Under the pieces are notes generated by a model, which saw only the letters and a program-made list of their open reading frames with translations, did not search any database and was not told the origin of the DNA. From an uncultured Acetatifactor sp. (GTDB lineage: Bacteria > Bacillota > Clostridia > Lachnospirales > Lachnospiraceae): a DNA stretch of 63,847 bases. The translations under genes and the position numbers were made by a program. The stretch is from the NCBI GenBank assembly GCA_947625675.1, contig CANQPH010000013.1, forward strand, positions 1-63,847, in the 5' to 3' direction. Of the stretch, positions 13,703 to 24,181 are shown in pieces (within the stretch, counting starts at the first letter, position 1; each line of letters opens with the position of its first letter).

Positions 13703-13739
13703 GATAGACATGGCGAAGCGCTGTGCCTATCCTTTTTTA
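13703..13739 (+). terminator. Terminator after tRNA-Leu(AAG)
   Basis: GATAGACATGGCG pairs imperfectly with CGCTGTGCCTATC, followed by CTTTTTTAT. Confidence 0.6.
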
Positions 13740-13909: not shown

Positions 13910-13930
13910 GGTCGCAGAGTTCTCCCCTCT
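13910..13930 (+). repeat. Left arm of a 21-bp perfect inverted repeat (IR-L)
   Basis: The sequence begins GGTCGCAGAG and ends CTCCCCTCT. It is the exact reverse complement of 15409-15429; the identity stops at both edges. The pair encloses 1,478 bp containing only the tyrosine recombinase gene and its flanks. Confidence 0.9.
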
Positions 13931-14045
13931 ATGATCCGAACGCTTTTCCCATCCAGCGCAGCCCTTTTTTCTCCTTGGATTCAATCCGCCAACAAAAAAT
14001 CAAAGAGTTTTTGGCCGTCCGACTAAAAAGTTTGACTGCGATTGT

Positions 14046-15161
14046 TCACAAGCCCACGGCCGTCAGTTTATCCATGTTTGCTCTCTTCATCTCTATGGAA
14101 GAATGGACATATCGATCAAGGGTGATGGTGGTATTGGCATGGCCCAAAATTTCGCTGAGGCTTTTGATCTCAAAACCAGCTTCTACGCAGCGGGTGGCAA
14201 AAGTGTGGCGGATTGTGTGAAAATGAACGCCCATGAGTCCGCACTCCTTCGTATATTTCGCAAGCTTCTTCTGCACTTGCCGGGGCTCAACAAATTGTTC
14301 CGTGCCGCTCAAGAGAAAAGCCGCAGGACAATGGGGATCAAATCGCTCGCAAAGCCTGACTGCGCTCTCGGTGAGAGGAATCGTCCGAATCGAAGTATCG
14401 CTCTTAGGGCTGCCAATCATCACCTTTGTTTTGCCGGCTCCCGTACATTCATAATCTCTGAGCCTCTGCATGGTGGCGGACACACGAATCGTCCTGTTTT
14501 TCAACGAGACGTCCTCCCACCTTAAGGCACACAACTCTCCAATTCTAAGACCGGTGAACAGTGCCAGAAGAATGCCGAATTTGCATTCGTCCGTATCCGT
14601 TTGCAGATATGACACAAAGCGCCGCTGTTCATCGATGTCGAGGATGCGGGCTTCCTTTTTCTGCCCTTTGGGATAAGTGATTTCAACCCTGGGAAATATG
14701 TCGGGAAACTGTACTGCCGTATATTTCAAAATCGTGTGCAGCACCGTGAGGATATCCTGCACAGTTTTGGCCGCAAGGCCCTCATCCAGCAATTCTTGTT
14801 TGAATTGTTCCACAAGCTGCGTACTGATTCCCAGCGGAAAACAACCTCCCAGCTTGGGTAAAATGTGCTTCTTCAGGATCGTATCATATTTAACGTAGGT
14901 GGATTCTTTCACTTTATACTTCTCCCATTGAAGCCATTCTTCACAGAAAAAAGTAAATCTGTGGCGGTTATTCGTCGCAGGTACGGGCTTGTCAGCCAGC
15001 AGCGCCGCTCTGCATCGTGTCACCTTTTCTTTTGCCTCCGCATAGGTTTTCCCGTAACAAAACCCATACTTAACTTTGCCGGAAAGCTCATATCCCTTGA
15101 TATATCTCGCTTCCCAACGTCCGTCCTTTCGTTTGAAAATATTTTCGCCTTTTCTTGGCAT
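14046..15161 (-). CDS. Tyrosine recombinase (phage-integrase family)
   Basis: A 371-aa recombinase. The N-terminal AP2-like arm-binding segment (GRWEARYIKGY) is followed by a SAM-like core-binding domain (about 65-165) and the catalytic domain. All catalytic residues are visible: R206 (TGLRIGEL), K253, H315 and R318 (HTIRH), H341 (GHAN) and Y351 (DRYVH). AAGGAGG precedes the start on the minus strand. No excisionase, relaxase or phage gene is nearby, and the gene sits alone between two perfect inverted repeats. That suggests inversion of its own segment more than element integration. The protein family itself is usually annotated as an integrase of mobile elements. Confidence 0.9.
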   Translation of the reverse strand: MPRKGENIFKRKDGRWEARYIKGYELSGKVKYGFCYGKTYAEAKEKVTRCRAALLADKPVPATNNRHRFTFFCEEWLQWEKYKVKESTYVKYDTILKKHILPKLGGCFPLGISTQLVEQFKQELLDEGLAAKTVQDILTVLHTILKYTAVQFPDIFPRVEITYPKGQKKEARILDIDEQRRFVSYLQTDTDECKFGILLALFTGLRIGELCALRWEDVSLKNRTIRVSATMQRLRDYECTGAGKTKVMIGSPKSDTSIRTIPLTESAVRLCERFDPHCPAAFLLSGTEQFVEPRQVQKKLAKYTKECGLMGVHFHTIRHTFATRCVEAGFEIKSLSEILGHANTTITLDRYVHSSIEMKRANMDKLTAVGL

Positions 15162-15347
15162 GTCGTTCCCTCCTTGTATTGAAAAAATTTACGACCCATA
15201 ATGTATCAACCGGAAGTCGCCCCTCCTTGACTGCTGTTCTGACTGCGATAAACGCAAATCGAAACCATTCTGAGCAAAAAAAGCTATTTGTAAATGAGGT
15301 GTCAGCCTTTCCAAATATAGTTTTTTCTGTTTTTTTACCCCAAGCAC

Positions 15348-15376
15348 TTGAAAATGAGCGATCAGTGTGTTAAACT
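15348..15376 (+). promoter_or_regulatory. Outward promoter inside the invertible segment, facing the RiPP operon
   Basis: TTGAAA, a 17-nt spacer and TAAACT, with TGT immediately before the -10 box making an extended -10. It lies 33 bp inside the right inverted repeat and reads rightwards towards the kinase gene at 15535. A T-rich stretch lies just upstream. No competing promoter of this quality was seen between the repeat and the operon. Confidence 0.55.
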
Positions 15377-15408
15377 ATACACGTTTTAGGGATTTTGAAT
15401 GCAGACGC

Positions 15409-15429
15409 AGAGGGGAGAACTCTGCGACC
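15409..15429 (+). repeat. Right arm of the 21-bp perfect inverted repeat (IR-R)
   Basis: The sequence begins AGAGGGGAG and ends CTCTGCGACC, the exact reverse complement of 13910-13930. It also contains a local palindrome (CGCAGAG...CTCTGCG with its left neighbour). It lies 106 bp upstream of the first gene of the RiPP operon. Confidence 0.9.
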
Positions 15430-15534
15430 CGGTCTTCCAGGTAAAATTTTACTCGCTTTAGAACATTTTGTTTAGTCGGATAGGAAAAAGCATTCATTCA
15501 CATTATGTATTATTCTCGCAAGGTTAAATGTCAA

Positions 15535-16344
15535 ATGGAAAAAAATGTTTATCGATTTGCGGGACATGCGGTGGAGATATGTTCGCTGTATCCGCAGATA
15601 CAGACAATGTGCAGCGGGTATCGGACGACCGATTGCCCGGAGCTGTCTTTGTCCGTCAGTCAGAGAGACATCGACGATGAGCGCAGAAGGTCTGAGGAAG
15701 AGCGCAGAAGGCCCGATGATGAGATCGAAGGATCTGATGATAAGCGCAGAAGGCCCGACAAAGAGAGAACCGCCTGGGATGGGCAAGGTCGCCGCTCTCA
15801 TGACGCATATCTGGAGACGCTGGCCGTCTACCGTAAGCTCGCGGAGAGTCTGATAGAATACGACACCCTGTTGTTTCACGGATCTGCCGTAGCCGTGGAC
15901 GGCGTATGTTATCTTTTCGCCGCAAAAAGCGGCACGGGAAAGTCCACTCACGTTCGTTTCTGGCGGGAGCTTTTGGGTGGGCGGGCCGTCATGGTGAACG
16001 ATGACAAACCGCTTCTCGCCATTTCCGACAAGGGCGCCATCGTCTGGGGAACGCCGTGGGACGGGAAGCATCGCCTAAGCAGCAATATTTCAGTGCCATT
16101 GCGGGCGATCTGCCTTTTGGAACGAGGGGAGAAAAACAGCATTGAACCTATTTCACAAAAAGAGGCCTGGCCAGCGCTTTGGAGGCAGAGTTATCATCCG
16201 GCCGAGCCGGATAAGCTGAAGCGGACATTGGCTCTGGTGGACGGCCTTTCAAAACACGCCAGGCTATATCGGTTGAATTGCACGCCGGACATTCAGGCGG
16301 CCCGCATGGCCTATGAGGCAATGAGAAAAGGAGAATCACTATGA
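15535..16344 (+). CDS. HPr-kinase-like P-loop protein of a RiPP operon
   Basis: About 269 aa. It has the P-loop AAKSGTGKST (about residues 129-138) followed by VNDDKPLL, the pattern of HPr kinase/phosphorylase-like proteins (HprK C-terminal fold) found in RiPP clusters, for example Firmicutes lasso clusters, where they can phosphorylate the precursor. Residues about 47-78 are an Arg/Glu/Asp-rich insert made of 21-bp repeats. The start is uncertain: ATG 15535 is preferred over ATG 15505 because AAGG precedes it. The gene overlaps the next one by ATGA, so translation is probably coupled. Its target may be the precursor peptide downstream. Confidence 0.7.
   Translation: MEKNVYRFAGHAVEICSLYPQIQTMCSGYRTTDCPELSLSVSQRDIDDERRRSEEERRRPDDEIEGSDDKRRRPDKERTAWDGQGRRSHDAYLETLAVYRKLAESLIEYDTLLFHGSAVAVDGVCYLFAAKSGTGKSTHVRFWRELLGGRAVMVNDDKPLLAISDKGAIVWGTPWDGKHRLSSNISVPLRAICLLERGEKNSIEPISQKEAWPALWRQSYHPAEPDKLKRTLALVDGLSKHARLYRLNCTPDIQAARMAYEAMRKGESL
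15681..15768 (+). repeat. 21-bp-period coding repeat in the kinase-like gene
   Basis: The word GCGCAGAAGG recurs at 15681, 15702 and 15744 (spacings 21 and 42 bp), coding ERRRSEE, ERRRPDD and KRRRPDK. The third unit in phase has diverged. Confidence 0.7.
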
Positions 16345-16595
16345 AACTGAAGGACACATTTATCACCTATTCTCTTGGCGGAGAGCATACCACGGTAGCA
16401 ACGGAGGGTTTTTCCGGCATCGTCCGGAGCAACGGCACTGCCGCATTCATCATCGAATCGTTGAAGACTCCCACCACGCCGGAGCAAATCGTGGACGCCA
16501 TGGCGGCGAAATACGATGCGCCCAAGGAAAGGATCGAGAAGGACGTGGCGGGGGTGCTGGCGCAGCTGCGTTCCATCGGGGCCATTGAGGATTGA
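16341..16595 (+). CDS. PqqD-family protein (RiPP recognition element)
   Basis: An 84-aa small winged-helix protein of the PqqD/RRE type: an N-terminal beta region (TFITYSLGGEHTTVA), GFSGIVRSNGTAAFIIESL, then TPEQIVDAMAAKYDAPKERI and a C-terminal helix. RREs bind the leader of a precursor peptide and present it to modifying enzymes, here presumably the two radical SAM proteins and possibly the kinase. The ATG overlaps the upstream stop codon (ATGA). Confidence 0.85.
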   Translation: MKLKDTFITYSLGGEHTTVATEGFSGIVRSNGTAAFIIESLKTPTTPEQIVDAMAAKYDAPKERIEKDVAGVLAQLRSIGAIED

Positions 16596-17104
16596 GCGCC
16601 GACTTTGAACAGGTGCTGGCCCGGGATGGAAAGCTCGTATATATTGGCGTGGGAACCAGCATGCTGCCCATGCTGCGTCAGCGCCGAGACCTTCTGATCA
16701 TCGAGCGGCCCCGAGGTGTGCTGCGAAAATATGACGTCCCGCTTTTTAAGCGGGGTCCGGGCAAATATGTGCTCCACCGGGTATTAAAGGTGCGCCGGGA
16801 CGGGTACGTCCTCTGCGGCGATCACCAATGGCGGAGGGAATACGGCGTCACCGACCAACAGATCATTGGCGTGCTGACCGCTTTTGTGCGGGATGGAAAA
16901 GAGATTTCGGTGACTGACCGGCGCTATCGGCTGTACGTACATTTGTGGTGCGATCTGTTCTGGCTGCGAGCCGCCATTCTGTGGTGCCTGGCCGCACCCG
17001 GCCGGATCAGGAGGAAGCTGAAAAGACAGCGCAAGAAAACGCCTGAACCAGGCGGGAACATTCTCCCGTCTGTGCAGGATACAAAATCAAAGCAGAGCAG
17101 CTGA
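16592..17104 (+). CDS. S24/S26-type signal-peptidase-like protein
   Basis: About 170 aa. It has the serine motif GVGTSMLPML and the downstream strand VLHRVLKV followed by LCGDHQWRR, as in S24/S26 peptidases. A His stands where type I signal peptidases have the catalytic Lys, recalling SipW/ER-type enzymes. A hydrophobic segment near residues 125-140 and a basic tail suggest membrane association. It could remove the precursor leader. The start is uncertain: TTG 16592 overlaps the PqqD stop (TTGA) and keeps the Ser motif well inside; GTG 16613 is an alternative. Confidence 0.7.
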   Translation: MSADFEQVLARDGKLVYIGVGTSMLPMLRQRRDLLIIERPRGVLRKYDVPLFKRGPGKYVLHRVLKVRRDGYVLCGDHQWRREYGVTDQQIIGVLTAFVRDGKEISVTDRRYRLYVHLWCDLFWLRAAILWCLAAPGRIRRKLKRQRKKTPEPGGNILPSVQDTKSKQSS

Positions 17105-17118
17105 AAGGAGGAAAAATC

Positions 17119-17211
17119 ATGAAGGAAAAATATGAAGCTCCTGTGGTGGAAATCATTGCGATTGACAAGGAGGATATCATTTTTGCCAGCGGCGGAAGCT
17201 GTGGCGAATAA
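17119..17211 (+). CDS. Putative RiPP precursor peptide (30 aa)
   Basis: Thirty codons with a near-perfect ribosome-binding site (AAAGGAGG, 7 nt before ATG). The N-terminal half reads MKEKYEAPVVEI, then an acidic IDKEDII segment, and the C-terminus is ASGGSCGE with a single Cys. Small peptides starting MKxYExPxxE and ending in a Gly/Ser/Cys core look like leader-core precursors of Clostridia. The position between the RRE/peptidase genes and two radical SAM/SPASM genes is that of a RiPP substrate. A stem-loop follows at once, as often seen after precursor genes. The modification cannot be deduced; a Cys- or Gly-centred crosslink in the last eight residues is the simplest guess. Confidence 0.75.
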   Translation: MKEKYEAPVVEIIAIDKEDIIFASGGSCGE

Positions 17212-17219
17212 TGACAATG

Positions 17220-17249
17220 TTTGCCCCTCCGCTCTGCGGCAGGGGCAAA
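17220..17249 (+). promoter_or_regulatory. Stem-loop after the precursor gene (attenuator/stabiliser)
   Basis: TTTGCCCCT pairs perfectly with AGGGGCAAA around a loop that itself can fold (CCGCTCTGCGG). No T run follows, so it is more likely an RNA-stabilising or partial-attenuation element that raises precursor mRNA above that of the enzymes. Confidence 0.6.
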
Positions 17250-17302
17250 ATCCTTCCTGACGGGAAATGCGAAATATAAAGTTTGGATAAGGAGGAAACG
17301 GC

Positions 17303-18661
17303 ATGCGGCAAATTGTCCCCCCGCTCGTTCTGATTCAGAAAATATTGGAACAGCTAAAACCGGAGGAGGGGGCTTCCTATCGGCCGACTACGCACTGCGT
17401 GCAGATCCAGCAGCCGGAGGGAGTTCTGCTGTATCATACACTGACGGGAGAGTTGCTCCTGTTGGAAGGGAAAGAAGCGGAGCAGTTTCAAAAGCTGTCC
17501 GGTTCCGTTCCTGCGGCACTGACAGGCTTGATCCTTTGTCGTTTTTTGGTGCCCCAGGAAACGAACGAGATGGCTCTGGCCGATTTGGTACGGGGTGTTG
17601 CCCAGCGATTTCCGGGAAAAGATAATTTTTTGACGAAGTATGTGATCTTCACGACTACGGCATGCAATGCCAAGTGTTTTTACTGTTTTGAGGCAGGCGC
17701 TGAAACAGTGACCATGACAGAGGAGACTGCCAGGGCGGCGGGAAAGTATATTGCGGAGCACTGCGGCGGGAAGCCGGTTCATATAGAGTGGTTTGGAGGC
17801 GAGCCGCTGATGAATCCCCGTGTCATAAATGTGATTACGGATTATTTGCGGCTCCAGGGAGTGGAATTCCATTCCCGAATCACGAGCAATGGGTATCTTT
17901 TTGATGCATCGACGGTGTTGCGGGCGAAAGAAGCTTGGAACGCAGAGCGGGTTCAAATCACTTTGGACGGTACGGAGGAGGTCTATAACCGGCGCAAGGC
18001 GTATGTTGACCCGGAGGGCAGCCCATTTCAGCGAGTGCTGGGGAACATCGGGCTGCTTCTGGATGCCGGTGTGCAGGTCACGGTCCGTTTGAATATGGAT
18101 GAGAATAACGAGCAAGATCTGTATTTGTTGGTGGATGAGCTGGCGGAGCGTTTTGCGGGGAGAACAGGTTTTGGAATTTATCTGCGTGTGTTGATGGAGA
18201 ACTTGGGCGTGGAACCTCCAAGCTATACGGAGGACGTGCGGTGCGCTCTGGCGGCTAAAGCCCGGGCATTGTGGGAGTATTTTGTCCGAAAGGGCATAGC
18301 TGAAAAGAGAACCTTGCGACAAAGGCCTACTTTCTATTCTTGTGGTGCAGACAATGTGAACGCTGCCACCATTACGCCGGAGGGTCGGCTGGGACGATGC
18401 GAGACCACGTGTGAAAGAGGAATCTGGGGGAGCGTTTTTTCCGATGAACGGGATGATGCGGTGCTCCGGCAGTGGCGGGAGCGTCGCACGCCAGAGGAAC
18501 TCTGCCGTGTTTGTGCTTTTTATCCGCAGTGCGTGCGGCTGAAAGAGTGTGTGGCCCGGTCGGAACATTGCTCTCCCGTTGAGCGGGAGGAACGGAGGCT
18601 CAGACTTCGCCAGGCCATTCTTGGAACCTATGAGGCTTGGAAAACCACCGATCGTGTCTGA
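17303..18661 (+). CDS. Radical SAM/SPASM peptide maturase 1
   Basis: A 452-aa protein with an N-terminal extension of about 110 residues, the radical SAM cluster motif CNAKCFYC (C121, C125, C128), FGGEPL, and a Cys-rich C-terminus (YSCGADN..., GRCETTC, CRVCAFYPQC, EHC) that fits a SPASM domain with auxiliary Fe-S clusters. Such enzymes install thioether, C-C or similar crosslinks on RiPP precursors. AAGGAGG precedes the ATG. It is a close paralogue of the next gene, with the block THCVQIQQPEG...LLYHTLTGEL shared almost unchanged. Whether the two act on different residues or as a pair is unknown. Confidence 0.85.
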   Translation: MRQIVPPLVLIQKILEQLKPEEGASYRPTTHCVQIQQPEGVLLYHTLTGELLLLEGKEAEQFQKLSGSVPAALTGLILCRFLVPQETNEMALADLVRGVAQRFPGKDNFLTKYVIFTTTACNAKCFYCFEAGAETVTMTEETARAAGKYIAEHCGGKPVHIEWFGGEPLMNPRVINVITDYLRLQGVEFHSRITSNGYLFDASTVLRAKEAWNAERVQITLDGTEEVYNRRKAYVDPEGSPFQRVLGNIGLLLDAGVQVTVRLNMDENNEQDLYLLVDELAERFAGRTGFGIYLRVLMENLGVEPPSYTEDVRCALAAKARALWEYFVRKGIAEKRTLRQRPTFYSCGADNVNAATITPEGRLGRCETTCERGIWGSVFSDERDDAVLRQWRERRTPEELCRVCAFYPQCVRLKECVARSEHCSPVEREERRLRLRQAILGTYEAWKTTDRV

Positions 18662-18692
18662 TTGAAGGTACGATATACGAGGAGGAATGAAC

Positions 18693-20066
18693 ATGCGGCA
18701 GATCGTTTCGCCGGTCGTCCTGGTACAAAAGATACTTGGGCAGCAGAAAACAGATGAGGGGACTTCGTACCGGCTGACTACGCACTGCGTGCAGATCCAG
18801 CAGCCGGAAGGGATCCTGCTGTATCATACTCTGACCGGGGAGCTGCTCATGCTGGAACGGGAAGAAGCGGAGCAGCTGCAAAAGCTGTCCGGCTCTGTCC
18901 CCGCAGCACTGACGGATCTGATCCCCCGACGGTTTTTGATACCTTGCGGGACGGACGAAATTTTCCTGGCGGATCAGACACACCGGATCGCCCGTCTTCT
19001 GGGACAAAAAAGCAAAGCCATTACGGAGTATCTGATTTTCACCACCACGGCATGCAATGCCCGGTGTTTTTACTGCTTTGAAGCAGGCATCCAGCGGGCG
19101 ACCATGTCGGAAGAAACCGCCCGGGCGGCGGGGGCATACATGGCGGAGCACTGCGGCAAAGACCCGGTTCGGCTGGTCTGGTTCGGGGGCGAGCCGCTGT
19201 TGAATGGAAAAGCCATCGATACCATTGCAGAGGTTCTGCGGCAGAGGGGCGTGGCGTTCCGTTCCCGGATGGACAGCAATGGCTATCTCTTCGATGAGGC
19301 CTTGACACGGCGGGCGAAGGACGACTGGGGCCTGGAACAAGTGCAGATCACTCTGGACGGCACGGAGGAGGTCTATAACCGGCGCAAGGCGTATGTCGCC
19401 CCCAAGGGCAGCCCCTATCAACTGGTGCTCAAAAATATTGGTCTTTTGCTGGATGCCGGTGTACAGGTGGTGGTACGCATGAACATGGACGAGGACAACG
19501 AGGGGGATCTCTATGCGCTGACGGATGCGCTGACGGAGCGTTTCGGCGGGAGACCCGGCTTCGGCATCACACTGCGCATCATTATAGAGGACAAGGGCAC
19601 GCAGCCCTACAGCTATACCGACGGGGAGCGGCGCTCCCTGGCGGAAAAGGTGCGCAATATGTGGGCGTATCTCGATCAAAAGGGCGTGGCGGTCAAGAGG
19701 ACATTGGATCAGGGTTTTGTGATTTATTCCTGCTGGGCGGACAAAGCGGACGCCGCTACGATCACGCCGGAAGGCGCCCTGGGACGGTGCGAGTCCCATA
19801 TCGATCAGGGGATCTGGGGCAGCGTATTTTCCGGAGAACGAGATGAGACGGTGCTTTGGCAGTGGCGGGAGCGCCGGGATCCAGAGGAGAGATGCCGGAC
19901 ATGTGCGCTCTATCCCCGGTGTGTCCGGCTGAAACAGTGCGTGATTCGTACAAAGCAGTGCTCGGCCATTGAGCGGGAGGAAATGCGGATCTGGCTGGAA
20001 CAGGCGATTTTGGGCACCTACAAGGAATGGAGGGCGGGCCGCAGGGCCCTGACGGAAACGGTATGA
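18693..20066 (+). CDS. Radical SAM/SPASM peptide maturase 2
   Basis: A 457-aa paralogue of the preceding maturase with the same architecture: cluster motif CNARCFYC (C121, C125, C128), WFGGEPL, and C-terminal SPASM cysteines (YSCWADK, GRCESH, CRTCALYPRC, QC). The ATG at 18693 is chosen (GGAGG at 7 nt); the ATG 6 nt upstream lies too close to the site. The pair arose by tandem duplication followed by clear divergence. Its stop overlaps the next start (ATGA). Confidence 0.85.
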   Translation: MRQIVSPVVLVQKILGQQKTDEGTSYRLTTHCVQIQQPEGILLYHTLTGELLMLEREEAEQLQKLSGSVPAALTDLIPRRFLIPCGTDEIFLADQTHRIARLLGQKSKAITEYLIFTTTACNARCFYCFEAGIQRATMSEETARAAGAYMAEHCGKDPVRLVWFGGEPLLNGKAIDTIAEVLRQRGVAFRSRMDSNGYLFDEALTRRAKDDWGLEQVQITLDGTEEVYNRRKAYVAPKGSPYQLVLKNIGLLLDAGVQVVVRMNMDEDNEGDLYALTDALTERFGGRPGFGITLRIIIEDKGTQPYSYTDGERRSLAEKVRNMWAYLDQKGVAVKRTLDQGFVIYSCWADKADAATITPEGALGRCESHIDQGIWGSVFSGERDETVLWQWRERRDPEERCRTCALYPRCVRLKQCVIRTKQCSAIEREEMRIWLEQAILGTYKEWRAGRRALTETV

Positions 20067-21234
20067 TTGCGGAAAATACGGGAAAAACCTTGTGCCGACT
20101 GCTTGCGGCATGGATCCATCACACCCCCTGGAAGGCGGAAGAAACCTTGGACTTTGAGACGCTTTTTCAGGTGGCGGGCAGGCATCTGCTGTCTGCCGCC
20201 GTATGTGCGGCGCTGGAACAGACCGGCTTGATGGAGGACTGTCCTCCTGAGACGGCGAAACGCTTCTGGGAGGCGAAGACGAAATCCGTCCGCAAGACGA
20301 TTCTTATGGATGCGGAGCGGGGAAACTCATCGCCGCTTTGGAAGAACGCAGCATCTGGTATGCGCCCTTAAAAGGCATTGTCATCAACACTGTCTATCCC
20401 CAGTATGGCACACGGCAATTTGCGGACAATGACATTCTTATTGATGCGGAGCGATGGAGCGATGTGCGGGATTTGATGAAGGGCTTCGGCTACAGTGCCA
20501 AGGCCGGTGCCGCAGGCAAGAACGTCCATGACTCCTACTATAAGCGGCCCGTTTACAACTTTGAGATGCACCAGAGTCTGTTCTTGGCGGATGGCGGGAG
20601 TAATTGCATGTCCGTCTGTGCCTCCTACTATGAGAACGTGCGGGAACGGCTGATCAAAGACGGGGATAACGGCTGCGGCTATCATTTCAGCGATGAGGAC
20701 TTTTATATTTATTTTCTCGCCCATGCTTATAAACATTATAGCGCAGGCGGCACGGGGCTGCGCACTCTGCTGGACGTGTATCTCTACCGCATGGCCAGAC
20801 CCGAAATGAACATGGCATATATAAGGGGAGAGCTGCAAAAACTGGGGCTGACGGAGTTTGAGACAGTTTGCCGTTCCCTGACGGGAAAGCTCTTCGGCCC
20901 CGCTCCCTGTCCGGCTCTGACGGAGGAGGAGCGGGACATGCTGGACTGGATGGAAAGTTCCGGTGTATACGGCACGGATTTCCATCGTGTCCGGTCGGGG
21001 CTGCGTAATTTTCAAAGCAATGGCGGAGCGGTGACGGCCTGGTCAAAGGTGAGATATCTGCTTTGGTACATCTTTCCCCCATGGGACTGGTATCAGTCTC
21101 ATGCGCCGTTTGCTTACCGCCACTGGTGGGCTGTGCCGTTTTTCTGGGGATATAGATTGTGCCGGGGAGTGTTCGTCAACGGAAAAAATAATTTTCGCAC
21201 GGCGGGTGCGATATGTTCATATCGAGAGAAATAG
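20063..21234 (+). pseudogene. Nucleotidyltransferase-like protein split by a -1 frameshift
   Basis: Two frames together read as a roughly 390-aa protein of the NTP_transf_5 (PF14907) type often found in RiPP clusters. The first starts at ATG 20063 (overlapping the maturase stop) and reaches DAERG. The second continues IAALEERSIWYAPLKGIV...RQFADNDILID, which has the ADNDILI metal-site pattern. The frames join by a -1 shift at G-GGA-AAC (20320-20326), which has the form of a canonical slippery heptamer (X-XXY-YYZ). A simple one-base deletion or sequencing error explains it equally well. If functional, it might nucleotidylate a peptide or other small substrate. Confidence 0.65.
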
Positions 21235-21255
21235 CGGACGAAAGGACATGGAAGC

Positions 21256-22974
21256 ATGATCAAGACGATCATTACCCTGATCGGACCGAAGCGCAGGAAT
21301 CAGATGTTGGCTCTGATTCCCGCAATGCTGCTGGCCTCCCTTCTGGAAATGGCCGGACTCACAATGGTGGTTTCCATTTGCGCTTCCCTTTTAGACAGTG
21401 CATGGCTGGGAGAAAATCCGGTTACACTCTGGCTGTGCGGCGTCCTGGGGATTCAATCCGAAGTATCTTTGGCGCGGGCGCTTCTTTTTGCGCTGATTAT
21501 GTTGTATGTATTCAAATTACCGTATCTGGCCTGGGAGAACTATGTTGCGGCGAAGTTTGCCCGTATCACGCGGCATGAGGTGTCCGTTCGGCTGTGCGGG
21601 CGCATTATCCGGAGTCCTTATACCTATTTTATACGGCATGGCACGTCGGAGCTGCAGAATCTGTTGGGACAGGATATGTTTCAGTTTTCCGCCGGGCTTG
21701 AAGCATGCATGCAGATCCTGATGGAATCCCTTGCCGTACTGGGAATGGGGATCTGCATGTTATTGATTGATCCGGTCATGACTCTGTTTTTGGTAACAGG
21801 GATTGCGTTTTTGACATTGCTGACCCGAGTGATACTCATTCGGCCGATACGGAACGCTTCCCGGCAACAGCGCGATGCGAACCGCAGATACTGGAAGTGG
21901 CTGCATCACATGGTCGATGGAATCAAGGACATTAAAACCGGACGTCACGAGTCCTTTTATGAATCCCGATTTGCCGAAGCCAGTGCGGAATACTTGCGAT
22001 CCGATTATTTGAGACAGTTCTGGGTTAAACTGCCGACCCTGTGCATGGAGAGCGTCATGGTGCTGACCGTGTTAATTTATCTTCTCTTTTTCGTGCAGTC
22101 TGGAAAAGATCTGATAGATTATCTCCCCAGCCTTTCCGCATTGGCGTGGACGGCGGTGCGCCTTTTACCGGCGTTTAGCCGAATCAATGCCGGATTGACG
22201 CAGATGGGCTATGCAAAGGCCTCCGTAGAGGCGATCCGGTCCGCAATGGAGGAAACATCGCCCAAAGAGAAGGAGCTGCCCATGCGGCTGACGGAAGCGA
22301 ACGGGAACGGGAGCATTGCGCTGGATCATGTGTCCTATGCTTACGAAGGCGAAGGGAAAACCGTGCTGTGGGACGTGGAGATGGAGATCCCCATGGGAAC
22401 GTCGGTCGGCATCATTGGTCCCTCCGGGGCAGGAAAAACCACGCTGCTGGATATTCTTCTGGGATTGCTTGCGCCGGATGAGGGAGAGGTCCTGATCGGC
22501 GGGATCCCCGGCAATAGATACTATGACGTTATGCTGGATAAAATCGCTTATGTGCCCCAGGTCACTTTTCTTTTGGACGATACCATCCGAAATAACGTGG
22601 CGATGGGGTTTGAAAGAGAGCAGATACGGGACGATCAGGTATGGGAGGCGCTGGAGAAGGCCGCACTTGCGGATAAGGTGCGGACCCTCCCCAGGGGGTT
22701 GGACACGCAGATTGGAGAACGGGGGATTCGGCTTTCCGGCGGAGAGAGGCAACGGCTGGGGCTCGCCCGGGCCATATATCGGGATCCGGTACTGATTGTT
22801 TTTGATGAGGCGACCTCGGCGCTGGATCTGAAGACGGAGACCCTTGTCATGGATTCCATCAATCGTTTGAAAGGGCAGAAAACGCTGGTTATCGTTTCCC
22901 ATCGTTTATCCGCCGTATCCGGCTGTGACCGTATCTATCGGGTGGAGGACGGAAAGGTGATAAGGGAAAGATAA
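21256..22974 (+). CDS. ABC exporter of the RiPP operon
   Basis: A 572-aa fused membrane/ATPase half-transporter with Walker A GPSGAGKTT (about residue 388), signature LSGGERQR (about 493) and Walker B LIVFDEATSALD (about 513). There is no N-terminal C39 peptidase domain, so leader removal must come from elsewhere, for example the S24/S26 protein. It starts 21 nt after the nucleotidyltransferase and is probably the last gene of the operon. It should export the mature peptide as a homodimer. Confidence 0.85.
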   Translation: MIKTIITLIGPKRRNQMLALIPAMLLASLLEMAGLTMVVSICASLLDSAWLGENPVTLWLCGVLGIQSEVSLARALLFALIMLYVFKLPYLAWENYVAAKFARITRHEVSVRLCGRIIRSPYTYFIRHGTSELQNLLGQDMFQFSAGLEACMQILMESLAVLGMGICMLLIDPVMTLFLVTGIAFLTLLTRVILIRPIRNASRQQRDANRRYWKWLHHMVDGIKDIKTGRHESFYESRFAEASAEYLRSDYLRQFWVKLPTLCMESVMVLTVLIYLLFFVQSGKDLIDYLPSLSALAWTAVRLLPAFSRINAGLTQMGYAKASVEAIRSAMEETSPKEKELPMRLTEANGNGSIALDHVSYAYEGEGKTVLWDVEMEIPMGTSVGIIGPSGAGKTTLLDILLGLLAPDEGEVLIGGIPGNRYYDVMLDKIAYVPQVTFLLDDTIRNNVAMGFEREQIRDDQVWEALEKAALADKVRTLPRGLDTQIGERGIRLSGGERQRLGLARAIYRDPVLIVFDEATSALDLKTETLVMDSINRLKGQKTLVIVSHRLSAVSGCDRIYRVEDGKVIRER

Positions 22975-23061
22975 CTTTGCACTGACTGCCGGTATATGGG
23001 TTGGGGGTCGGCTGATTTTATTGGTCTGTTGCGGCGGGCAGTAAAAGGTGGAGGCAGCGAT

Positions 23062-24027
23062 ATGGGCAAGGCATCCATGACTTGTCTGGAAACACAGAAT
23101 GGTCAGATAAGATATGAAAGGAAAAATAAGATCGGAATCGGAGTCCGTGTAGGGAGTCTTACGGTTATCTCGGCCACTGAATCGCGGCGGCAAGGTTATA
23201 CGGTCTGGCGCTGCCGCTGCGATTGCGGAGGGGAGATTCTGCTGGATACTCGGTATCTCCAACGGGCAACCGTTACGGACTGCGGCTGCGGCTCAAAGGT
23301 TCGGCCCGGACAGAGGGATTTGACGGGTCTGCGTTTTGGAAAACTGGTGTGCGTGGAACCGACAGATCAGAGAGGCCCAAGTGGAGGGGTCGTGTGGCGC
23401 TGTCACTGCGATTGTGGCAATGATTGTCTGGCGGTAAGCACGCAGCTCACCAGCGGCTATAAGAAAAGCTGCGGCTGCGGACGTAAGCCGTATGGTTCCC
23501 AGTCAACTTTAAAAAGAAAGCAGGGGAAAAACGGCGCATCCCATGGCCGAAACGTGGCAGGGGAATATGTAGGCTGTCGTTTTGGGAGGCTTGTGGTAAC
23601 CGCTTACGATGGAAAACACGATCGACAGCATTACTGGCGCTGTATATGTGACTGCGGCAAGGAAACGGTGGTCAGCCAGACGAACCTGCAGTCCGGTCAT
23701 ACGAGAAGCTGCGGCTGTCTCCGGCAAGAATCTTACCGCAACAATTTAAAGCTGATTGACGGAACAAGCGTAACGATGATAGAGAGCCGGAAGAAAAAGC
23801 CGATCAAATCCAATACAAGCGGATACAACGGTGTATATTGGAACCGGAAGAATGGAACGTGGTCCGCTCAGATTACTTTCAAGGGCAAGACATATTATCT
23901 GGGCACGTATCAAACCATTCAGGAGGCCGTCCAGGCCCGGAAGATCGGAGAAGAGATGTACGATGACTTCCTGGACTGGTATTACAAAGAATATGGGAAG
24001 GCGGATTCACATCATTTTCAGACGTGA
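23062..24027 (+). CDS. AP2-domain protein with three zinc-ribbon-like repeats
   Basis: A 321-aa protein with three repeats of the pattern WRC.CDCG...(20-22 aa)...C.CG (WRCRCDCG/DCGCG, WRCHCDCG/SCGCG, WRCICDCG/SCGCL), each likely binding one zinc. A C-terminal AP2-type DNA-binding domain follows (SGYNGVYWNRKNGTWSAQI, GTYQTIQEAVQARK). Related proteins are common near phage HNH genes and in Clostridia. GGAGG precedes the ATG at 23062. It may be a regulator or a homing-endonuclease relative without a visible nuclease. It sits immediately before tRNA-Leu(CAG). Confidence 0.75.
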   Translation: MGKASMTCLETQNGQIRYERKNKIGIGVRVGSLTVISATESRRQGYTVWRCRCDCGGEILLDTRYLQRATVTDCGCGSKVRPGQRDLTGLRFGKLVCVEPTDQRGPSGGVVWRCHCDCGNDCLAVSTQLTSGYKKSCGCGRKPYGSQSTLKRKQGKNGASHGRNVAGEYVGCRFGRLVVTAYDGKHDRQHYWRCICDCGKETVVSQTNLQSGHTRSCGCLRQESYRNNLKLIDGTSVTMIESRKKKPIKSNTSGYNGVYWNRKNGTWSAQITFKGKTYYLGTYQTIQEAVQARKIGEEMYDDFLDWYYKEYGKADSHHFQT

Positions 24028-24089: not shown

Positions 24090-24173
24090 GCAGAGATGGC
24101 GGAATTGGCAGACGCGCACGGTTCAGGTCCGTGTGGTAGCAATACCATGAGGGTTCAAGTCCCTTTCTCTGCA
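24090..24173 (+). tRNA. tRNA-Leu (anticodon CAG)
   Basis: An 84-nt class II tRNA: acceptor GCAGAGA/TCTCTGC, anticodon stem CACGG/CCGTG around TTCAGGT (CAG), long variable arm, T-loop GGTTCAAGTCC. CCA is not encoded. Confidence 0.92.
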
Positions 24174-24181
24174 CGAGCGAT

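Follow-up and report, generated by a model that had tools for sequence, protein, structure and literature searches.

The 63,847-nucleotide contig CANQPH010000013.1 of an uncultured Acetatifactor species (assembly GCA_947625675.1), hereafter the window, carries at positions 13910-15429 a compact segment in which a single tyrosine recombinase gene is enclosed by inverted repeats. This segment lies upstream of genes that resemble an operon for a ribosomally synthesized and post-translationally modified peptide (RiPP), and we consider it here as a candidate invertible promoter for that operon (Table 1). The two repeat arms are exact reverse complements of 21 nt each, with 1,478 nt between them. 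Searches that allowed up to three mismatches revealed no further copy of the arm 21-mer in the window (100 shuffled versions gave 0 matches), and none beyond the single pair in the 3.1-Mb genome assembly. Between the end of the right arm and an ATG at 15535 in the first operon gene lie 106 bp, although translation could also start from an in-frame ATG at 15505. A first-pass annotation had described exactly complementary arms, one complete recombinase gene with its catalytic residues, a distance of 106 bp to the first operon gene and an outward-facing extended -10 promoter inside the right arm; each of these observations is borne out by the present analysis, with the distance holding for the ATG at 15535. 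New relative to that annotation are a tRNA-Leu on the left, repeats of arm type within the segment and the pseudo-palindromic shape of the putative core sites.

The recombinase matches the Pfam families Phage_integrase (93.7 bits) and Phage_int_SAM_3, and 13 aligned sequences, the window copy among them, all agree at residues R206, K253, H315, R318, H341 and Y351. Its predicted domains comprise an N-terminal beta-beta-beta-alpha domain (about residues 8-55), a SAM-like core-binding domain and a catalytic domain. By both sequence and fold its nearest relative is the Tn1549 integrase, and the catalytic R-K-H-R-H-Y set together with the integrase fold places it among the Tn1549/Tn916-type integrases. 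It is the sole gene of the segment, where the list of open reading frames (ORFs) holds no cargo gene and the largest ORF outside the recombinase gene is 72 aa. No terminator was scored after the recombinase gene, and a terminator-like sequence at 13709-13725 is no better than shuffles; the stretch after the gene nonetheless folds. Three of the eight Phage_integrase matches in the same genome are family members with spanning repeats, and the other five are not. A phage origin was considered and rejected: the best matches in a phage collection are at most 44% identical, and all are unverified faecal scaffolds. Two of the 12 scaffolds listed were examined, and both carry inverted repeats of the same design.

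At the left and right ends alike, the arm and its inner neighbour together form a pseudo-palindrome. Judged from the sequence, this layout is that of a core site for a tyrosine recombinase, in which two half-sites flank a short spacer. Read inverted, the right site becomes TCGCAGAG-TTCTCCC-CTCTGCGT, and the 21 bp that include the spacer are identical between the two arms. Given an asymmetric spacer and sites in opposite orientation, a recombination event that joins the two sites would flip the segment. There is also a weaker inverted match of 19 bp (79%), with one copy inside the segment (14009-14027) and the other outside it (15471-15489).

Table 1. Features of the invertible segment and of the neighbouring RiPP locus (window positions)
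Feature	Position	Strand	Remarks
Left core recombination site	13910..13936	+	Putative; arm 13910-13930 (GGTCGCAGAGTTCTCCCCTCT) and imperfect inner half-site; TCGCAGAG-TTCTCCC-CTCTATGA
Right core recombination site	15403..15429	-	Putative; arm 15409-15429 and inner half-site; ACGCAGAG-GGGAGAA-CTCTGCGA
3'-side arm-type sites	14020..14039	+	Putative; TGACTGC 14033-14039 and degenerate CGACTAA 14020-14026, 13 bp apart; beside recombinase stop codon
5'-side arm-type sites	15228..15246	+	Putative; TGACTGC 15228-15234 and 15240-15246, 12 bp apart
Outward promoter-like sequence	15348..15376	+	TTGAAA-17-(TGT)TAAACT, extended -10; toward RiPP operon
Tyrosine recombinase, 371 aa	14046-15161	-	Complete gene between arms
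tRNA-Leu left of segment	13603-13688		Points toward segment
First operon gene, P-loop (GTGKS), HprK/ScmC-like	15505..16344	+	Weak ScmC match far below cut-off; P-loop read from sequence
PqqD-type RiPP recognition protein	16341..16595	+	Pfam PqqD 59 bits (cut-off 23.4)
Likely RiPP precursor, 30 aa	17120..17212	+	MKEKYEAPVVEIIAIDKEDIIFASGGSCGE; read from sequence
Two paralogous radical-SAM proteins, likely RiPP maturases	17303-18661, 18687-20066	+	Nearest model TIGR04463, far below cut-off
NTP_transf_5 protein	20338-21234	+	Putative operon member, judged by strand and short gaps
ABC exporter	21256-22974	+	Putative operon member, judged by strand and short gaps
343-aa protein, sub-threshold AP2 match	22996-24027	+	Putative operon member, judged by strand and short gaps

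Relatives of this arrangement are common. Recombinase matches at E 1e-30 or better are present in 47 of 138 genomes of the same genus, and for the family and the class, matches at E 1e-60 occur in 75 of 397 and 31 of 391 genomes, respectively (own genome counted). Flanking inverted repeats with a score of at least 17, a threshold chosen post hoc after earlier scoring, surround 42 of 63 genus genes, the window included (direct control, 2; reversed control, 0). The corresponding figures are 20 of 29 for other genera of the family (controls 0 and 0) and 18 of 28 for a class-wide sample (controls 1 and 0). The genus set consists of 60 regions, mostly top-listed matches, together with locus L031 and the window; its flank comparison excluded L120, which has too short a flank, and matches shorter than 700 bp, and treated neighbouring matches as one. 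The family and class sets comprise 29 and 28 new loci among the matches listed, and three loci of the class set come from genomes of the same family.

The 80 distinct cassettes are uniform in size (median 1,417 bp, quartiles 1,369-1,474) and carry 77 distinct left arms. Most arms take the form TTTCGCAGA-spacer-TCTGCGAAA or a close variant, with a spacer that differs by locus. Paired arms disagree at only 2 of 554 positions in the central 7 bp versus 48 of 1346 in the half-sites (Fisher p 1e-5; 79 of 80 cassettes, one with 166-bp arms being left out, and mismatches counted inside the repeats only). Repeat selection could explain part of this contrast, and few central mismatches are expected if strand exchange requires an identical overlap. 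Eleven genomes hold two or three cassettes, and none of the 15 resulting pairs shares whole arms, the longest common run being 13. The first-pass annotation had regarded the enclosure of the recombinase gene within the invertible segment as unusual, but within this recombinase family it is common. None of the 21 recombinases of the genus set that lack spanning repeats adjoins a separate short inverton, and one of the 42 with spanning repeats does.

Several loci depart from the usual dimensions. In L209, a related recombinase is surrounded by inverted arms of 166 bp, much longer than in other cassettes. The sites at L062:2945 and 7428 are inverted, lie 4.5 kb apart around a recombinase and differ at 4 positions, possibly representing a larger version of the segment. 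Genome G085 (L077, L080-L089) encodes 14 family recombinases, several in neighbouring pairs and few with spanning repeats at the threshold, and another arrangement may exist there.

A second type of repeat is found between the arms. Direct repeats of the form TGAC[C/T/G][A/G] occur family-wide beside the recombinase stop codon and upstream of its start, and 34 of 42 intervals between them measure 12 or 13 bp. The motif was picked on the genus set, in which forward and reverse occurrences number 110 and 13 in the gaps inside cassettes, 34 and 34 outside, and 42 and 52 in the coding region. It was then tested on the two sets unused for its choice, where the counts inside cassettes are 69 and 1 (family) and 54 and 3 (class); the three sets together give 233 forward and 17 reverse. 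The exact word varies with the recombinase, being TGACTGC in the window and L061, TGACGGC in the C11 paralogue of the same genome and TGACCA in the exopolysaccharide (EPS) set. The relative L010/L061 has TGACTAA where the window has the degenerate CGACTAA. Direct-repeat arm sites set apart from the core sites are the sequence signature of a lambda- or Tn916-type intasome, and together with the predicted N-terminal domain the TGAC repeats suggest putative integrase arm sites.

The promoter-like sequence of the window ends 32 bp inside the right arm, has a TG before its second hexamer and agrees with the consensus at 9 of 12 positions. Its score of 13.3 exceeds those of 30 of 30 shuffles, and the best score in the 100 bp beyond the right arm is only 6.9. 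Scores were obtained with an approximate sigma-70 matrix applied identically to all compartments and controls. An outward promoter scoring at least 10 lies in the 100 bp inside the arm on the recombinase 5' side in 38 of 42 genus, 17 of 20 family and 13 of 18 class cassettes. Totals are therefore 68 of 80 on the 5' side and 0 of 80 on the 3' side, and TTGACA-17-TATAAT is present in many of the 5'-side promoters. The sequence displays the arrangement by which invertons are recognized, with an outward promoter inside the segment, by one arm and facing a gene. Given that outward promoters were found on the 5' side only, a cassette is expected to be ON when its operon lies on that side of the recombinase, and by this rule the window would show the ON state.

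Comparison of related genomes, which the first-pass annotation had proposed as a check, revealed both orientations at orthologous loci of relatives. L070, L071 and L072 represent one locus in three genomes. When L070 is aligned with L071, the cassette is colinear (1,271 bp, 78%) and the flanks are swapped left and right (677 bp, 78%; 2,602 bp, 83%), and the same swapped flanks surround the colinear cassette when L070 is compared with L072. The flank with the target genes adjoins the 5' side in L071 and L072 (ON), whereas L070 has it on the 3' side (OFF); in L072 this flank encodes a BTAD activator and a protein whose AP2 match is sub-threshold. For L076 and L078, in which one flank is conserved, the cassette aligns in one orientation (82%) and the operon flank in the other (72%), with the break at the 29-bp repeats. 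Both flanks are conserved around a cassette of the same orientation in L071/L072, L100/L111, L102/L112 and L118/L119. The differences in orientation at L070-L072 and L076/L078 are between species, not within one population. The first gene behind the inverted cassette at L076:10534-11922 and L078:4545-5894 is TnpB/Cas12f-like (L076 scanned; L078 its homologue), which would make it a TnpB-like gene under the control of a switch.

No second orientation of the window locus was found when its arm and related loci were sought in viral contigs, a genome-collection scan and plasmid records. The scan yielded a single relative, L031, with weak repeats (score 11). In Enterococcus raffinosus, megaplasmids of four strains (L166-L169) carry a cassette in one orientation only, with repeats of 25 bp (21 in CX012922). 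A fifth strain, Er676, matches the left flank alone and has a different family recombinase with 25-bp repeats elsewhere. E. raffinosus ATCC 49464 is a culture-collection strain.

On the basis of these characteristics, we propose that the recombinase binds the two core sites, and probably the TGAC arm repeats as well, and that strand exchange would occur within the shared 7-bp TTCTCCC spacer. The whole segment would then invert, turning the promoter toward the RiPP operon (ON, the state of the assembly) or away from it (OFF). Since both inner half-sites and every arm site would move along with the inverting segment, the recombinase would meet nearly the same substrate in both states, and consequently no excisionase would be needed and flipping could proceed both ways. 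Because each locus has a different spacer, several switches in one cell would be kept independent. We assign a probability of almost nine in ten to the reading that segment 13910-15429 works as a one-gene phase switch for the RiPP operon. The invertible promoter proposed by the first-pass annotation thus gains support from comparison, through 80 cassettes, 68 promoters on the same side and orthologous loci in both orientations. Confidence is high for self-contained promoter switching as the mechanism of the class, and good, judging from its sequence, that this particular copy acts as a switch. We infer activity for this copy, transcription of 15505-24027 from its promoter, and binding of its arm repeats.

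Other explanations were weighed against this proposal. The segment could be a locked relic, a former inverton fixed with its promoter toward the operon and with a recombinase that is inactive here. The imperfect left inner half-site CTCTATGA and the single known orientation of the window locus would fit such a history, as would the shared orientation in the four E. raffinosus strains. However, imperfect inner half-sites are common among other cassettes, the 371-aa frame is intact with its catalytic residues, and both arms remain identical over 21 bp that include the spacer, an identity that drift would erode. We therefore regard a relic as improbable. Still less probable is a small transposable element, the alternative raised in the first-pass annotation, whose terminal repeats would be the arms and whose recombinase would move the segment, with any promoter effect being incidental. 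The enzyme is indeed nearest to transposon and phage integrases, and a close cassette (82% aa, L010/L061) resides at an unrelated operon, which implies that cassettes have moved between loci over evolutionary time. Yet insertion sequences share terminal repeats among copies and leave target-site duplications, whereas here the arms differ at nearly every locus, the 21-mer occurs as a single pair in its own genome, and inspection by eye revealed no duplication beside the arms. Nor does the segment resemble an integrative mobile element with cargo and direct-repeat attachment ends for excision, having one gene and inverted ends. Orthologous loci of relatives, moreover, retain both flanks around an inverted cassette, which speaks against a transposable element.

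The promoter might alternatively serve as a two-way selector that also drives a leftward target. Close outward genes lie on both sides of the cassettes in L063 (adhesin-like), L091, L097 and contig C11 of the same genome (an EPS gene and a helix-turn-helix, HTH, gene). At the window, the four nearest called ORFs to the left, including one of 403 aa without a Pfam family, and the tRNA-Leu all face the segment, making a selector very improbable at this locus. An ON/OFF switch remains the preferred reading.

In E. coli FimB/FimE and Bacteroides Tsr, the recombinase gene is located outside the invertible part. Like the cassette, the RecV, FimB/FimE and Mpi/Tsr systems combine short inverted repeats with promoter inversion, often with surface or polysaccharide operons downstream. 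RecV and Mpi/Tsr had been offered by the first-pass annotation as parallels, and they stand as analogues only, the enzyme being nearer to the Tn1549 integrase. When compared with Tn1549/Tn916-type integrases and lambda Int, the cassette differs in that it has no transferable cargo, no excisionase gene was found in it, its inverted core sites bound one gene and its promoter points outward.

In C. difficile RecV and Bacteroides Mpi, the recombinase gene adjoins the invertible part or is distant from it, whereas in the cassette it lies inside (PMC5903667). Recombinases do occasionally sit within the invertible segment, and Hin is the named example: the H segment of Salmonella, like the cassette, holds an invertase gene and an outward promoter within inverted sites (PMC5903667). 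However, Hin is a serine recombinase that acts with Fis at an enhancer (PMC3798978), whereas the cassette has an integrase-type tyrosine recombinase and arm-type repeats. For the pneumococcal hsdS inversions, the recombinase is encoded within that locus (PMC11868660). In gut Clostridia, invertons of group 139 are statistically tied to nearby tyrosine recombinases of invertase group 35, but in the two examples for which coordinates are given, the arms are about 205 and 227 nt apart, which leaves no room for a recombinase gene (PMC11892184). The SZO08560 switch of Streptococcus zooepidemicus likewise has a promoter between short repeats (GTAGACTTTA/TAAAGTCTAC), an adjoining recombinase and a surface-protein target, but at 115 bp its invertible part could not contain a recombinase gene (PMC2654543). 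With the recombinase inside, a 1.4-kb segment is easily missed by surveys of short intergenic invertons, one of which dropped segments overlapping coding sequences (PMC8748976).

The genes adjacent to cassette arms are diverse. Twenty target proteins were scanned in Pfam, three of which had no match, and arm-adjacent genes encode CpsB/CapC, sugar transferases, aminotransferases, glycosyltransferases, an SLH protein, helicases, Hsp70, an adhesin with SpaA and collagen-binding domains, and a pilin-like protein with an N-methylation motif. A TnpB/Cas12f-like target falls just below the Pfam cut-off and is backed by PADLOC models. In E. raffinosus, the cassette is followed by an HTH gene and then an accessory Sec operon, and in E. 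gilvus a cassette with weak repeats (score 12) precedes a WxL operon.

Two further cassettes reside in the same genome. The one on G000:C11 (L066) has a perfect 24-bp repeat (arms 292-315 and 1824-1847). Its 3' neighbour is a CpsB-like EPS gene (OFF), but past the 5' arm, at a distance of about 90 bp, lies an outward HTH gene, and the cassette may select between these two neighbours. The CpsB-like name rests on resemblance to the CpsB_CapC protein of L100, the gene being cut by the contig end. The other, on G000:C25 (L096; left arm from 8916, right arm from 10193), has its nearest outward genes on the 3' side, including a HerA-like (DUF87) gene, and an inward-facing 5' neighbour, and is OFF by the above rule. 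The HerA-like gene and a 523-aa gene, both next to the cassette, are possibly a phase-variable defence or DNA-processing operon. At L063 (2024, 10026 and 12469), two divergent adhesin-like genes flank a cassette, and the core site recurs a third time 8 kb away; an either/or selector with a longer alternative segment is possible there.

The RiPP operon itself is assigned with varying certainty (Table 1). Neither radical-SAM protein reached the cut-off of any of the 25 NCBIfam models listed for each, and because all models remain below cut-off we do not name the peptide product. G094 alone among the 138 genomes of the genus carries a close radical-SAM pair; on G094:C169 the homologous pair is preceded by a similar small precursor ORF, and that short contig has no cassette. 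The cassette most similar to that of the window found in the genus genomes, on G094:C72 (82% aa), is located at a short UDP-sugar dehydrogenase ORF. Given this RiPP pair without a cassette and the closest cassette at another locus, the RiPP genes and the cassette were likely joined separately. The tRNA-Leu gene of Table 1 and another at 24090-24174 bracket the cassette and operon, and the whole bracketed stretch could be an acquired island. The tRNA-Leu was considered as an attachment site and rejected, as no core-site-like sequence was seen in it by eye or by arm search. The first operon gene contains a 21-bp tandem repeat at 15672-15776 that codes for a charged stretch resembling RRSEE/RRPDD.

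Among the papers listed, titles and the beginnings of abstracts revealed no report of this cassette or of an invertible promoter before a RiPP operon, in a search that covered subscription journals thinly. With this caveat, we provisionally consider the novelty to be a Tn1549/Tn916-type integrase reduced to a one-gene, self-contained invertible-promoter switch. We also think it fairly likely that such autonomous switches are widespread in Clostridia and enterococci as domesticated Tn916/Tn1549-type integrases that keep their arm sites and have private spacers. Set before EPS, adhesin, secretion, pilin-like, TnpB-like and RiPP operons, they would give each cell an independent bistable set, and the RiPP of the window would be phase-variable. 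If this is true, a compact, portable and orthogonal memory switch joins the known repertoire, and the cassettes show an integrase turning regulator while retaining its arm sites. Bistable operons of hard-to-grow gut Clostridia would become predictable from sequence alone, and the RiPP peptide would be made by only part of the population.
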